A DNA stretch of 64,000 bases from Planctomycetaceae bacterium. GTDB lineage: Bacteria; Planctomycetota; Planctomycetia; Planctomycetales; Planctomycetaceae. The translations under genes and the position numbers were made by a program. The notes under the pieces were generated by a model. The model searched no databases. It had not been told where the DNA came from and worked only from the letters and a program-made list of their open reading frames with translations. Location: NCBI GenBank assembly GCA_019636285.1, contig JAHBXV010000004.1, positions 1 through 64,000 of the forward strand, in the 5' to 3' direction. Of the stretch, positions 21,081 to 55,600 are shown piece by piece (the first letter of the stretch is position 1; every line of letters begins with the position of its first letter).

Positions 21081-23567
21081 ATGTTAACTCGCCTGGTCCG
21101 CCGCTGGAGTTGTTGCTCGGCCGTGGCCACAGCCGTCATCGCTTCAAGCGTCGTCCATGCAGGGTCCGAGGGCCAATCGGCCAGAGTGCTGGTTCCGCAG
21201 GCTGGAAGTTCGGATGATGTGTTCGCCGTCCTGATGCGGGCGGATGCGTCCACCCTGCCCGATCGCGGCCCGTCCGACCACATCGTGATTGTTGATACGT
21301 CGGCCAGCCAGGTCGCCGGATATCGTCGAACCACGCTGCAGTTCGTGAAGACGCTGCTGGAATCGCTTCCGGCGACCGACCGCGTGCTGCTGATGGCTTC
21401 CGACGTTCAACTGGTGGCGCTCCAGGACGGTTTTTCGGCTCCCGGAAGTGAATCATCGAAGAAGGCTTTTGCCGCACTCGAAAAGCGAGTCCCGATGGGG
21501 ACTTCGAAGCTGCTGACAGCCTTGCGCGAAGCGGTGAAGCAACTGCCGGCCGATCGCCCGGCGGACATTCTTTACCTGGGCGACGGACAGAGTACCGGCG
21601 AACCGATCTCCGCTTCCGACCTGCGTCCGTTGATCGCCGAACTGCGAAGCCGCGAGGTTCCGGTTCACGGATTCGCGGTGGGACCGAGCCAGAACCTGCA
21701 CCTGTTTGGCACGCTGGCTCATCAGACCGGCGGCTATGTCGGCATGGACCGCGTTCGCGACAGCGAGGCGGCATCGGGCGAAGCCACCGCGCGGGAAGTC
21801 GCCGCGGCAATGTCCCACGGAGTCTTCTATCCCGAAAAGCTGGAAGCGCCCGGACACCTTTCCGACATCCTGCCCGGACCGTTGCCGATTCGCAGTGACC
21901 GCGAAACAATTCTTCTGGGACGAGGTCGTGCGACCGATGCGGACCAGTTGCAGTTGATCGACCAGGAAACAGGCGCCCGGCTGACGTGGACTCTGACTGG
22001 AAGTGAACAGCATCCGGCGGCCTCGTTCCTGGGCCGGTTCCGCGAACAGGCCGCGATGGACGGCGGATTGAGCAACTCGCTGGCGGGATGGCAGCTCTTC
22101 TGCTCCGCCGACGAGGAATTCCAGGTGCGATTGTCGCAGATGGTGGCGTTCGCCCAGGAGCAACTGATCGCCGCCAACCCGAAGGAAGCCCTGCGGGTTG
22201 CCAACGCCGTGTTGCAGTTGGACGGCAACCATCGTGACGCCCGCGTGATTGCCGGTCAGGCTCAGCGCCTGGCGGTTCGCGACACGAGCTTTCAGCCGGA
22301 CGCCGCGCCGCCGGAACCCGCCGCCGATCTGGATGGTCGGGCCGCGCCGAATCTGTCGCGGAATCTGCTCGACGAACGTCGCCAGTTGCAACAAGTTCGC
22401 ACCGAACAGCTTCGGGTCGTGGTGAACAACGCAATTAAAGAGGCCCGTTCGCTGGATGATACGACCATTGCCATCGATCAGTTGCGTCAGGTTCTGAACG
22501 CGGTGAAGTCAGCCGCCGATCTGGCTCCGGAAGATCGCAACGCGCTGATCAAGACGCTGGATAGTGAAGTTCAGGCGACGATGAATCGCCGCGACCAGGT
22601 CGACCAGGCCCGTATTCGCCGTCAGCAGTTGCAAGCTCAGGAAGAGGCGCGAACCCGGTTGGCCGACGAGATGGTCGTGGATGAACAGCGACTGGAAAAT
22701 CTGATCGACCGCGTGCGCTCGCTGATGATCGAAGGTCGACACGGCGACGACAACGCGTTCGCGGAAGCCGAGGCAGTGGCCAGAGTGGCAGTCGACCTGC
22801 GTCCGCAGGCTGGGGCTCCGGCCGCGGCCCGATTCAACGCGGAAGCCGCTTTGCAGTTGCGTCGGGCGTTCCGCTTGCGGGAGCGTCGAGCCGACCAGTT
22901 TCTCGAAACCCTGCATCAGGTCGAGCTTTCGCATATTCCGTTCCCGGACGAACCTCCCATTCGTTTCCCGTCCGCGGAAGTCTGGAAGGCTCTCACCGAG
23001 CGTCGCCGCAAGTACAAGTCGGTCGACTTGAAGCGAAACAGCCCGAACGAAGAGCGCATCATGCAGGAGTTGTCGGAGCCAACCGACCTCCAGTTTACTG
23101 GTCAGACTCTACAAGATGCCGTGACCTTCATCGAAGACTTGCATGACATCAATATCATCATCGATGAAACGGCCCTGAACGACGAAGGGATCGCTCCCGA
23201 CACCCCGGTCGACTTGCAGATCAGCGGAATTTCGCTGCGAAGCGCGCTGCGGCTGATGCTTGAGCCGTTGCAGTTGACTTACGTGATTCAGGACGAGGTG
23301 ATGAAGATCACCACGCAGACCGCGGCTGAAGACATTCTGTCGACCCGCGTCTATCCGGTGGCCGACCTGGTTGTTCCGATCAGCAGCGGATCGCAGGGCG
23401 GCCTGGGCGGTGGAATTGGCGGCGGCCAGGGTGGAATTGGCGGCGGTGGCGGATTTGGTGGCGGCGGCGGTGGATTTGGCGGCGGCGGCATGGGTGGTGG
23501 CGGTGGGTTCTTTAGCGTTCCCGCTCAAGCCGTTCCGGTCGATGCCGGCAAAAAAAAACCGCAGTAA
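21081..23567 (+). CDS. Exported VWA protein with secretin N0-like domain and Gly-rich tail
   Basis: From ATG 21081 (GGAG seven bases upstream) the product is 828 residues with a signal peptide (~1-33). A von Willebrand A domain follows, with the MIDAS motif DTSAS in HIVIVDTSASQ (~residue 70) and LYLGDGQSTGE. A long charged helical region spans ~400-640. Near 670-765 is a secretin N0/STN-like domain (LTYVIQDEVMKITTQT). The tail is almost pure glycine with Phe and Met (~770-810), then KKKPQ. A planctomycete-type cell-surface protein is likely. The final codons sit on an A9 run after which the -1 frame stays open into the next gene. Confidence 0.75.
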   Translation: MLTRLVRRWSCCSAVATAVIASSVVHAGSEGQSARVLVPQAGSSDDVFAVLMRADASTLPDRGPSDHIVIVDTSASQVAGYRRTTLQFVKTLLESLPATDRVLLMASDVQLVALQDGFSAPGSESSKKAFAALEKRVPMGTSKLLTALREAVKQLPADRPADILYLGDGQSTGEPISASDLRPLIAELRSREVPVHGFAVGPSQNLHLFGTLAHQTGGYVGMDRVRDSEAASGEATAREVAAAMSHGVFYPEKLEAPGHLSDILPGPLPIRSDRETILLGRGRATDADQLQLIDQETGARLTWTLTGSEQHPAASFLGRFREQAAMDGGLSNSLAGWQLFCSADEEFQVRLSQMVAFAQEQLIAANPKEALRVANAVLQLDGNHRDARVIAGQAQRLAVRDTSFQPDAAPPEPAADLDGRAAPNLSRNLLDERRQLQQVRTEQLRVVVNNAIKEARSLDDTTIAIDQLRQVLNAVKSAADLAPEDRNALIKTLDSEVQATMNRRDQVDQARIRRQQLQAQEEARTRLADEMVVDEQRLENLIDRVRSLMIEGRHGDDNAFAEAEAVARVAVDLRPQAGAPAAARFNAEAALQLRRAFRLRERRADQFLETLHQVELSHIPFPDEPPIRFPSAEVWKALTERRRKYKSVDLKRNSPNEERIMQELSEPTDLQFTGQTLQDAVTFIEDLHDINIIIDETALNDEGIAPDTPVDLQISGISLRSALRLMLEPLQLTYVIQDEVMKITTQTAAEDILSTRVYPVADLVVPISSGSQGGLGGGIGGGQGGIGGGGGFGGGGGGFGGGGMGGGGGFFSVPAQAVPVDAGKKKPQ
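23550..23558 (+). other. A9 homopolymer, possible frameshift/slippage site
   Basis: Nine consecutive A residues lie three codons before the VWA stop, read as three lysine codons. In the -1 frame no stop occurs from here through the next gene (24958). Such runs support -1 ribosomal frameshifting or transcriptional slippage, but they are also common sites of sequencing error. Confidence 0.4.
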
Positions 23568-23633
23568 CACCAAACGATCAGCCGACCCAGTCTATCCGGG
23601 TTTCGCAGACTTCCTCGGATAACAAGCCGACCA

Positions 23634-23680
23634 AGAACCGTGACCGTTCCTCCGGGAGCAGTCACGGTTCTGTTGTTGTC
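23634..23680 (+). terminator. Strong hairpin with TGTTGTTGT tail
   Basis: AGAACCGTGAC (23634-23644) and GTCACGGTTCT (23661-23671) form a perfect 11-bp stem with a 16-base loop, followed by a T-rich tail. It looks like an intrinsic terminator after the VWA gene, 67 bases past its stop, yet it lies inside the open -1 frame leading to the next coding region. Confidence 0.65.
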
Positions 23681-23698
23681 GATGGCTCCTCGGCATCC

Positions 23699-24958
23699 GT
23701 GACGGTGCCCGGCGAACCGGCGACAGACTGGGATCGCTTCTTCTCCGGTCGAACGATCCCGGCGGACGAAGTTCGATCGCTTGTCAGAGACCTGAGCGAG
23801 AAGCGTCGCCACGAGGATGTGATTGCCTGTCTCGAGGCCGCTGTTCGGGCGGGTCAAATCCAGCCCTGGATGTATGAAGTTCTCGCGCTGTCCATGCAGA
23901 TTGTCGGACGTCCCCCGGCGGACGTCGAGCGCGTCCTGCTTTCGAGTCAGGATGTTGTCGCGCAGGATGTCGACTCGCTGTTATTCCTGGGAAGCCACCT
24001 TGTTCGCCTGGGGCGCGACGAGCAGGCGGTGGCCGTGTATCGGCAGGCATCGCGGCTCCAGCCGACCCGGTACGAGCCGTATGAACTCGCCCTCCAGCCG
24101 TCCGCGCGCACTCAAAAGCCGGATCTCCTGGCGTGGTCCGCCGCCGGCCTGGCCCGTTACGACTGGAGTTCCCGCCGTGACGAACGACTGAAAACGACCC
24201 AGTTGCTGGTGACCGCGATGGTGGGCCGGCTCGCGGCCATGGGCGACCCGCTCAACGCGACACGGCTGGAACAGACCTTTCGCCAGGCGCTCGCGCGCGA
24301 TGTCGCCGTCCGGTTGGAGTGGAGCGGCCATGGCGATCTTGATCTGGAGATTCACGAACCGGGCGGAACGGTTTGCAGCGTCGACGAACCACACACTCTG
24401 GGTGGCGGGGTCTTCCTGCACGACGGATTTGGACCCCGGCCGGAAAACTGTTTCGAGCACTATGTCTGCCCGCTCGCGTTTCCGGGTGAGTACCGCGTTG
24501 TCATTCGTCATGCCTACGGGGAAATTGTCGGCAATCGGGCGCGGCTGGTGATTACGCGGGACGCGGGAACGCCTCAAGAGCGGAAGACGCAGTTCCAGAT
24601 TCGCCTGGGGCCTGAACCCTCTGAAGTTCGCTTCGCCCTGCCGGGAGGACGCCGCGAGCAACCGGGTGAAGCTGGCGGGCGGGAAACGAGTGATCGTGCT
24701 CAGCGGGGGTCGGCGGCAATGGTCTCGCGTCAACTCCATGCCGCGGCCCGTGTCCAGAGCCAGACGAGTGCAGGCGGCGTGACTCCCGCGGTGGGAGGGG
24801 GGGCGGTCGGCTATCAGCCAGTCATTCAATTTTTGACCGACGGAATCACGCTCACGGCGACAGCGACCGTGAGTGCGGATCGAAGGTACGTCCGAATTAA
24901 CGCGCGCCCCGTCTTCTCGGCCGTGACGGACTTATTCACGTTCAGCTTCGTGCAGTGA
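23699..24958 (+). CDS. TPR-like protein with C-terminal DUF2135-like beta domain
   Basis: A 419-residue frame with helical repeats at ~20-190 (EDVIACLEAAVRAGQ, EQAVAVYRQASRLQPTRYEPY), then a beta-rich region where VRLEWSGHGDLDLEIHEPGG, then the glycine-rich VFLHDGFG and GEYRVVIRHAYGE, resemble the DUF2135-type module seen after VIT/VWA domains. The tail is Gly/Ala-rich and ends in beta strands. The first possible start is GTG 23699, with no ribosome site, and the frame is open back to the A9 run of the VWA gene. It may be a separate gene or the C-terminal half of a frameshift product. No signal peptide of its own. Confidence 0.6.
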   Translation: MTVPGEPATDWDRFFSGRTIPADEVRSLVRDLSEKRRHEDVIACLEAAVRAGQIQPWMYEVLALSMQIVGRPPADVERVLLSSQDVVAQDVDSLLFLGSHLVRLGRDEQAVAVYRQASRLQPTRYEPYELALQPSARTQKPDLLAWSAAGLARYDWSSRRDERLKTTQLLVTAMVGRLAAMGDPLNATRLEQTFRQALARDVAVRLEWSGHGDLDLEIHEPGGTVCSVDEPHTLGGGVFLHDGFGPRPENCFEHYVCPLAFPGEYRVVIRHAYGEIVGNRARLVITRDAGTPQERKTQFQIRLGPEPSEVRFALPGGRREQPGEAGGRETSDRAQRGSAAMVSRQLHAAARVQSQTSAGGVTPAVGGGAVGYQPVIQFLTDGITLTATATVSADRRYVRINARPVFSAVTDLFTFSFVQ

Positions 24959-25013: not shown

Positions 25014-25319
25014 TCAAACGCGTATCCGCCGGGCGAACGCAATCAGCTCGGCCGCGTCGGTCACGATGCGTTCGATGGCGGCCTCATTGCAGGCCTCCTC
25101 CAGGGAGCGCGCCTTTTCAGACAATTCCGGGAATCCAAACCCCCCCCCTGCCCCTTTTAACTGGTGAGCCATGCGGGAGAGCTCTTTCCAGTCCGCCGCC
25201 GCGAGCAGCGTCTCGACTGTCTGCAATCGATCGGGAATGGCGACGGCGAATTCCTCGAGCAACTCTCGAAAGTCTTCGTCGTCCTGGAATTCCGAAAAAA
25301 CAGGGGTGGCTTGGGGCAT
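25014..25319 (-). CDS. Stand-alone histidine phosphotransfer (Hpt) protein
   Basis: A 101-residue four-helix Hpt domain. The phospho-accepting histidine is in RMAHQLKGAGGGFGFPELSE (about residue 52), matching the H-x-L-K-G-x-(A/S) consensus. It would relay phosphate between a hybrid kinase receiver and a response regulator. No two-component gene is adjacent; the nearest hybrid kinase is at 34976-37330. The gene converges with the TPR-like gene. Confidence 0.85.
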   Translation of the reverse strand: MPQATPVFSEFQDDEDFRELLEEFAVAIPDRLQTVETLLAAADWKELSRMAHQLKGAGGGFGFPELSEKARSLEEACNEAAIERIVTDAAELIAFARRIRV

Positions 25320-52684: not shown

Positions 52685-55600
52685 ATGTCCGCCACGGTAC
52701 CTTCGGCCAATCGCTCGGGCGACTTGGGGCAGTACATCGATCAGCAACTGTCGCGGGCGCGGCAATCGCTGAAGACGACCGACGTGCTGACAGCCGGCGC
52801 GCTCCTGGGAGCGGCAATCGTTGGCTATGTGCTGCTGTTCATTGTCCTTGACCAGATGATTCCCGGCGGGTTGCCATCGGGCCTGCGGTGGGCGCTGCTT
52901 ATTGCTTGGATTGGGGGCGTGCTGGCGTGGACCTGGTGGACGCTGGTTCTGCCCGCGTGGAGAGCGCTCAATCGGTTGTATGTGGCCCGCGAACTCGAAC
53001 GGGCGGAACCGGGGCTGAAGAGCAATCTTCTGAATCTGGTTGATCTCCAGCAGGCCGGTCGTGCGGTCGATCCAGCCGTGCTGCGAGCCATCGAGCGGCA
53101 GGCAGCGATCAAGCTGTCAACGCTCGACTTGCAGCAGGCGATCGACCATCGACCGTTCATTCGGTCCGCCTATCTGCTCGTGGGACTGCTGGCCGTTCTC
53201 GCGTTTTATGCGATGCTGTCCCCCAAGCGGCTGGGACCGACGCTGCTGCGGATGATTCCGTTCGCGGACGTGCAGGCGTCGACACGGACTCAGATCCTGC
53301 GAGTTGATCCGGGCGATACCCAGACAATTTCCGGTCGTCCACTGGAAGTGCTCGTCGACCTCGCGGGAGAGATGCCCAAATCGGCTACGTTGCTGTTCAC
53401 GACCGATGACCTGCAATACCGCGACGAAGCGCTCGAACTCCGGCCGGAGTCGGAACAGGGACAGCGCTATCGCGGCATGTTGCCAGCCGAAGCGGTGCGA
53501 CAATCGCTGAGCTATACGATCGAGGCAGGTGACAGCCGGTCGCGTGTCTATCGCGTGACCGTTCATCAGCCGCCGTCGGCGACCATCGAACAGGTAGTGA
53601 TTACACCTCCGGCTTACACGAAGCTGGAACCGGTGACGGTCACCGGCGGCGCCATTACCGCCTGGGAGGGGAGCGATGTTGCCCTGCATGGCGGCGTGAA
53701 TCGGGAAGTCGCGCGGGCGAAGATTGAACTGCTGGACGAGGAACGGAAAGCGACCGGTGAAGAACTGCCGCTGACCGTTGCCGAGGGGAGAAAGCTTAAT
53801 GCCAATTGGGCAATGAAGTTACGCGGCGACGGCAGCCATGCCCCGAATTACCGACTGCAGGTCGAGACCGAGCAGGGCGAAACCGATCCGGCACCCACCG
53901 TTTATCCGCTCACCATTCGCGCCGACAAGCCTCCTGAAGTGGCGCTGCTCGATCCGACGGAGCCGCAGGTGGTTCCCGCGAACGCCGTCATCCCGTTGAT
54001 GATTGCCGCCCGCGATGTCGACTTCGCGCTGACATCAGTGCAGATTCGCGTGGAGAAATCGGGCGAGACGATCTACCTCGAAAACCTCTTCACCGGCGAG
54101 CAGCGGGAGTTTTCGAAGCAGCACGACTTCGCTCTTGAGCGACTGGGGCTGAAGGCCGGAGACCAGATTCACTTGTGGATCGAAGCGGTCGACAACCGGC
54201 AGCCACGGGCGAACCGGACCAACTCCCCTCGATTGGCGATTACCGTTCAGGAACCGGTCAGCCGACAGGAAGCCCGCGAACAATTGGCATCCGCGAAGGC
54301 TGAGCAGCAGAAGCGACTGGACGAAGCACGCCAGGAACAGAATGAGCCGGGTGAAGAGCGACAGCCGATGGACGCCGGGATGCCCGAGTCCCCCCCCCCG
54401 GCGAATGCGGGAGACGACACAACACCCACGGAAAGCCCGGCGGAGAAGCCGGACGAGGCTCCGGAAGGCACGGGCGAGAAAGAGGGAAAGAACGGCGACC
54501 CTGGCGCGAGTAAAGATCCAGGTGCGAATGGGAAAGACGGGAATCGGAACGACGGCGGAATGGAAGGTGACAAGGGAGAACGCCCCTTGAGCCCGGCCGG
54601 TGAAGATGATGCCGACGTGCTGAAGTTCTTGAATGAGCAGTTGAATCCCGAGAAAGAACCAACGTCATCGCCAGATCGGCCGTCATCGTCCGAGCCAGGT
54701 GCCGAAGGGACTAAGCCGAAAGGCGATGGCGAGAAGAATTCGTCGCCGTCTGGTTCGGACGACATGCCTGCGGACAAGCCCGAGGGGGATAAGCCCCAAG
54801 GCGATAAAACCGAGGATGGCAAGACCAGTCCAATGCCGGGCGAGCGGTCCGATTCACCGAAATCGAAGCCGAACGACAGCACTTCTAAACCGCCTGCCGA
54901 GCGCCCGATGCCGTCGGAAGAGCCGACCGGCGACAAGCCACCCATGCCTGGTGAAAAGGGCGACACGCCCCCTGCACCACCGAAGGACGAACAGAGACCC
55001 GGGGAAAAGACGCCTGAGCCGAACGCAAGCAAGCCACCGGAACCGGGTGCCGGCAAGAAGCCGATGCCGGAATCTGGCGATATGCCGCCCGGCGAAAAGC
55101 CGGAGGGAACGCCCGATGGCATGCCGCAGGCCGACAAGCCCAATTCCCCTCCTGAACCGGGAGGGAAGCCCGATCCCAACGCGAATGGCGGAAAGCCGGA
55201 TGACGCCACGAAGCCCGACGGCATGACCGGGACGGGTGAGAAAGGGATGGGTGCCAAGGGAAATCCGTCGGACGATCCGAACGCGAAGTCGCCGGAACAA
55301 CCGGGTGCCAACGGTGAGAAGACTCCGGCCGGTCCGAAGGAGAACGGAGCCGATCCGATGCCCGGTTCCAAAACCGATAAGCCGGGCACACCGGACGGTC
55401 GCGAGCCGCCGATGAATGATCAGCAGCCTACCAAAAGCCAGCAACCTCCGCAGGACGGAGCCGAACCAACCGGCACGAAGACGTCACGTCAGGAGGCGAT
55501 GGACGACCAGAAGCCGACGGAGAACCCAACTGACAAGGGCTCCAACAAATCAAAGCCCTCGGAACGGCCGAACAGCGAAGCTCCGTCGGGGGCCGACGAG

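Follow-up and report, generated by a model that had tools for sequence, protein, structure and literature searches.

Described Slippage Systems and the VWA-TPR Locus

Functional transcriptional slippage in bacteria is known from a few genes and from insertion sequences. It occurs on an A11 run in the tssM1 gene of Citrobacter rodentium (PMC4256274), on an A9 run in the dnaX gene of Thermus thermophilus (PMC5009743 and PMC3711429), and on A runs in transposases of the IS630 type (PMC3711429). Here we describe a candidate slippage site within a protein-coding gene of a Planctomycetaceae bacterium, which lies in a 64,000-nucleotide stretch of genomic DNA (GenBank assembly GCA_019636285.1, contig JAHBXV010000004.1, positions 1 to 64,000 of the forward strand), hereafter referred to as the window. 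At this locus, a run of nine A's connects an open reading frame (ORF) for a VWA-domain protein with a downstream, TPR-containing reading frame, and the two halves together are termed the VWA-TPR gene.

The locus resembles C. rodentium tssM1 in that a poly-A run is located just ahead of a stop codon and slippage would restore a C-terminal half, giving a short and a long envelope protein. However, the two genes are unrelated, and the tssM1 arrangement belongs to one species (with an inverse arrangement in Yersinia tssM3), whereas the arrangement described here extends over a whole family. Slippage, the presence of both forms and the required ratio between them were established by experiment for tssM1, whereas for the VWA-TPR gene we infer them. 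The similarity to Thermus dnaX consists in nine A's within a gene and two products of differing length. In Thermus, however, the unslipped reading frame gives the long product and a slip leads to a shorter one, whereas at the VWA-TPR locus the short form is what the DNA specifies and slippage would extend it; among the family loci the Thermus arrangement is found only in one genome (G137). As in the IS630-type transposases, the A run joins two frames and the direction of the shift differs among relatives, although IS630 is a mobile element and the VWA-TPR gene is a single-copy chromosomal gene. Our literature searches found no slippage case in the phylum Planctomycetota. On recoding in Planctomycetes they returned only a 2013 survey that covers two planctomycete genomes and does not name the VWA-TPR gene in its main text, and a search for Planctopirus together with VWA found no recoding report.

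In the window, the VWA ORF (21081-23567, plus strand) begins with the ATG at 21081 and encodes 828 residues. The A9 run (23550-23558, plus strand) is read in the zero frame as AAA AAA AAA and is separated from the end of this ORF by two sense codons, CCG and CAG, and the stop codon TAA (23565-23567). The -1 frame is free of stops from before the run to position 24958 and comprises 466 codons past the run followed by a stop (23558-24958, plus strand); joined to the upstream ORF, it would encode a long form of about 1292 residues. The first start-like codon of the -1 frame is the GTG at 23699, and no ATG precedes it. The run, the nearby end of the VWA gene, the open -1 frame and the lack of an ATG ahead of the GTG had been pointed out in a preliminary description made from the sequence of the window, and each of them was reproduced in our analysis. 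The same description had cautioned that the open stretch of 44 codons is statistically weak; indeed, 43.5% of dinucleotide shuffles are open over an equal length, whereas none of 2000 shuffles remains open over 460 codons. The A9 run is the sole A/T homopolymer of at least eight nucleotides in the window, and the host genome (6.37 Mb) contains 11 distinct A runs of nine or more nucleotides, both strands counted.

Conservation of the A Run and Ancestry of the Split

A search with the second half was performed in 170 genomes that represent 58 genera of the GTDB family of the window (Planctomycetaceae). Homologues with 30-50% identity were identified in 169 of the 170 genomes and in all 58 genera. 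The junction was analyzed at 123 loci (122 genomes) for which both halves are readable on one contig, with most of the 58 genera represented; one of the genomes, G169, has an N gap upstream, and its locus was read by eye and assigned to the -1 frame. An A run is present at the junction in all 123 loci, namely A9 in 116, A8 in four and A10 in three of them, and no other state was observed. As expected for programmed transcriptional realignment, the run persists in many genera despite the divergence of the coding sequence. The zero-frame stop of the orthologues is always located 3-17 codons past the start of the run, with a median of 7. Elsewhere in the same upstream ORFs, AAA accounts for 45% of the lysine codons, and thus a requirement for lysine alone is insufficient to explain an unbroken run. 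Conservation at the junction in every locus places the run far beyond chance. The run has apparently been retained throughout the family so that slippage would yield a long form beside the short one.

The assemblies that contain both the run and the split include finished single-contig genomes (among them G005, G088, G089, G090, G148, G150, and G157), which excludes a homopolymer error. Sequencing error, a recent mutation or a pseudogene was the alternative that the preliminary description had proposed for the window, in the form of a single gene split by a homopolymer error or mutation. Homopolymers are error-prone and the A10 locus of G137 has its halves in frame; however, 122 genomes share the run and the split, a large number of these genomes being finished as single contigs, and purifying selection acts on either side of the run. 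As an account of the whole family this explanation is refuted, and its probability for the locus is close to nil.

Outside the family, members of the class normally encode both halves in the same frame of a single ORF, about 1100-1600 codons long, which provides the relatives with one continuous protein that the preliminary description had suggested looking for. The junctions of these outgroup genes contain no A run of eight or more nucleotides, and the outgroup ORFs that appear shorter are mostly located at contig ends. On the phylogenetic tree of the second half, one change suffices to account for the split genes with the run versus the fused genes (with a branch support of only 54). Given the fused outgroups and the single change on the tree, the fused gene is likely the ancestral state.

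Translation of the Linker

In 41 pairs of close relatives, which share species and are not independent events, the ratio of nonsynonymous to synonymous substitution rates (dN/dS) is about 0.31 for the codons that lie past the zero-frame stop and ahead of the first ATG, GTG or TTG of the second frame, so that this part of the linker evolves as protein. The substitutions in the linkers of these pairs number 136, 114, and 297 at codon positions 1, 2, and 3, respectively. When genera were tested singly, the ratio was between 0.15 and 0.37 in 10 out of 10. Among the 123 linkers, 105 lack an ATG and 28 lack any ATG, GTG or TTG. Since selection at the protein level acts ahead of any start and 28 linkers are startless, ribosomes must, as far as comparison of the sequences can tell, enter the second frame from upstream. 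The preliminary description had named a second half that always possesses its own start as grounds for abandoning the fusion, and the startless linkers show the opposite.

These observations bear directly on a model with two separate genes, the second of which would start at GTG 23699 or further downstream, or would be translated by re-initiation. The GTG is indeed present in the window, and a truly separate second half exists outside the family: in the family designated f16 (G320 and G274), the VWA-TPR gene is split in the absence of an A run and its second half opens with a signal-peptide-like sequence. Judged by its sequence, f16 is a natural control indicating that a truly separate second half needs its own export signal, and none is present in the family of the window, where the second half is devoid of a signal peptide throughout. 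A start codon near the zero-frame stop is absent from the 28 startless linkers, the linker codons preceding any start are under protein-level selection, and two genes would leave the conservation of the run without a reason. Thus, the two-gene model appears highly improbable. The conserved run and split, the fused outgroups, the selection on the linker and the startless linkers together lead us to classify the locus as conserved recoding, and not as an error, a pseudogene or a pair of genes. The proposal of the preliminary description that slippage produces a fusion of roughly 1290 residues as well as the 828-residue form is supported by the family-wide run and split and by the selection on the linker.

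Transcriptional Slippage Versus Ribosomal Frameshifting and Phase Variation

The relation between the two frames varies among the orthologues. The second half is in the -1 frame at 117 loci, in the +1 frame at five and in frame with the first half at one, so that the -1 shift assumed in the preliminary description applies to the large majority of the loci but does not hold as a general rule. The five +1 loci (G007, G043, G052, G053, and G070) belong to four genera; G051, which is represented by a shorter contig, is also +1 and constitutes the third member of one +1 genus, and one genus comprises both directions (+1 in G007 versus -1 in G008 and G009). The single in-frame locus, that of G137, has an A10 run. 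At least five changes of frame relation are required by the tree, and the run is found in all three codon phases (104, 14, and 4 loci). According to a published survey, a direction that varies among orthologues is a sign of transcriptional realignment, whereas a fixed direction is a sign of ribosomal frameshifting (PMC3711429). The run is never shorter than eight and is almost always nine nucleotides long, whereas a ribosomal heptamer would need just seven; it is also at run lengths of about nine that many genomes begin to show selection against slippage (PMC1088944). Shine-Dalgarno cores are not enriched upstream of the run (13 versus 10 of 122), and folding on its two sides, downstream and upstream, gave no clear signal of a strong conserved RNA structure. 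The varying direction, the length of 8-10 nucleotides and the lack of a clear signal for a Shine-Dalgarno stimulator or a strong structure favour RNA polymerase slippage on the A9 run, which is probably the process that joins both frames.

Several observations weigh against this interpretation and are compatible with programmed -1 ribosomal frameshifting on an A_AAA_AAA or A_AAA_AAG heptamer, as in E. coli dnaX. Any A9 run, whatever its phase, contains the heptamer A_AAA_AAA, so that the sequence permits both mechanisms; the A8 loci inspected each have G as the next nucleotide (A8G) and thereby retain a heptamer. In 95% of the loci (117 of 123) the shift is -1, the direction that a ribosomal shift on either heptamer would serve. 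The sequence 3' of the run folds a little more strongly than a control stretch does (mean z of -0.81 versus -0.39), and the +1 lineages are few and mostly represented by draft genomes. The VWA-TPR gene thus shares with E. coli dnaX both the heptamer and the -1 direction of most loci; unlike the E. coli site, however, it shows no clear sign of a Shine-Dalgarno stimulator or of a strong conserved structure, and the direction of its shift is not conserved, given that the +1 orthologues of four genera and the in-frame orthologue share the run. A ribosomal mechanism also does not explain why the run is held at nine nucleotides rather than seven. We therefore consider ribosomal frameshifting unlikely as the sole mechanism, although it is possible that slippage and ribosomal shifting act together. 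Phase variation, in which the length of the run would mutate in the DNA between an in-frame "on" and an out-of-frame "off" state, could be invoked because hypermutation is possible at A9 runs, because this kind of variation typically affects surface proteins and because the A10 run of G137 places the halves in frame. However, a contingency locus should vary widely in length and show a large in-frame share, whereas the 123 loci include a single in-frame case and 116 with a run of exactly nine A's, which makes this alternative very unlikely.

Under RNA polymerase slippage on the A9 run, a single promoter would give rise to two exported proteins. Transcripts with nine A's would be translated as far as the stop codon just past the run and give the VWA-STN protein of 828 residues, and transcripts with one extra A (or two fewer) would place the ribosomes in the -1 frame and yield the fusion of about 1292 residues, with the TPR and beta-sandwich half carried on a disordered linker. 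The downstream half, having no signal peptide, would rely on the fusion for both its synthesis and its export. The gene would have descended from one continuous ORF and would have acquired the A run together with the frame break only once, at the base of the family, with both being kept ever since. We infer that the slippage is transcriptional rather than ribosomal, that the short and the long form are both produced and both required, and that their ratio is determined by the site. The position of its parts suggests that the product may be an exported scaffold, with an interaction arm on some of the copies.

A-Run Splits in Other Genes

The locus represents one slippage site that has apparently been retained through a whole bacterial family, and it would offer a clean natural comparison that includes fused outgroups, a single origin, repeated switches of direction and the f16 genes with a second signal peptide. 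Two more of the 11 long A runs in the host genome show the same split anatomy, which suggests that these bacteria may make repeated use of slippage on A runs. More broadly, slippage on A9 and A10 runs could be a standing mode of expression in the Planctomycetaceae and their near relatives, in which A8-A10 runs have independently separated the domains of unrelated chromosomal gene families (VWA-TPR, ABC ATPase-GNAT, and polyketide synthase ACP-KR), each being expressed both as a short form and as a slippage fusion, with RNA polymerase slippage setting the stoichiometry genome-wide; we put this forward tentatively, with slightly less than even confidence. Automatic annotation cuts such proteins in two or labels them as broken, and other genes with A runs merit re-examination.

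In one of the additional splits, an A10 run (G000:C24:75188-75197) separates the ACP domain of a polyketide synthase from its KR domain, which is encoded in the -1 frame. This split, with an A9 or A10 run and a -1 shift, is also present in G007, G008, and G067, whereas the gene is continuous in G162 and G001. The other involves ORFs for an ABC-type ATPase and a GNAT-like protein (domain names assigned by eye) that are joined only via a -1 shift at G000:C25:64207-64215. For this pair, 15 family genomes, together with G277 from another family, have an A8 or A9 run with a -1 shift; in G006 the halves on either side of the A9 run are in frame, and single ORFs that lack the run were identified in G162, G149, G089, and G086. 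In addition, an A10 run at G003:C1:3601235 joins two frames (-1) of an apparent IS630-type transposase, a class with known slippage.

Domain Organization of the Predicted Products

All features of the locus are encoded on the plus strand. The short form (21081-23567), orthologues of which are found family-wide, consists of a signal peptide, a VWA domain, a helical middle part, an STN-like domain and a Gly-rich tail ending with GKKKPQ. The predicted Sec signal peptide MLTRLVRRWSCCSAVATAVIASSVVHA (21081-21161) was judged by eye. The VWA domain (21282-21737, residues 68-219) contains a MIDAS-like DTSAS motif, and its identity is established by a match to Pfam VWA_3 with an E value of 3.5e-12 and a score of 47.1 bits against a curated cut-off of 27. 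The STN-like (secretin/TonB N-terminus) domain at 23175-23294 is a more tentative assignment, as its match to Pfam STN (E value of 0.0011-0.005) is below the Pfam cut-off.

The -1 frame begins with a linker of 52 residues (23558-23713) that is predicted to be disordered (pLDDT below 50), and the equivalent region of the relatives evolves as protein. It is followed by a TPR-like alpha solenoid (23729-24292), for which the AlphaFold model and the Foldseek/VIA matches to TPR proteins support the fold, the Pfam TPR models matching weakly and only below their cut-offs. Next is a beta-sandwich domain (24296-24640) with the motif WxGxGDLDLxxxEPxG ... GG ... DGxGP ... GxY, which is modelled by AlphaFold with a mean pLDDT of 94. 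Neither Pfam nor NCBIfam provides a name for this domain. A Foldseek search with the beta domain alone gave no matches at an E value below 0.001; the best rows were DUF4425 (E value of 1.4e-3, TM-score of about 0.35) and immunoglobulin folds. The preliminary description had labelled the downstream half TPR/DUF2135-like, and the TPR part of this label is upheld by the model and the structure search. The DUF2135 part is not: the beta domain gave no match to the Pfam model (PF09906) at E values up to 10, and a direct test of the model gave none at this locus.

The C-terminal module (24803-24955; VGYQPV ... VSADRRYVRI ...) also forms the C-terminus of other large planctomycete proteins, many of which match profile positions 345-414 that correspond to this module. 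A second copy with the VSADRRYVRI motif, 59% identical, is located in the same genome at G000:C45:61101-61277 within an ORF of 1635 codons. The longest homopolymers of the window other than A/T runs are a C9 run (25140-25148) and a C10 run (54390-54399); the C9 run falls inside a minus-strand ORF (25014-25319) that is possibly HPt-like.

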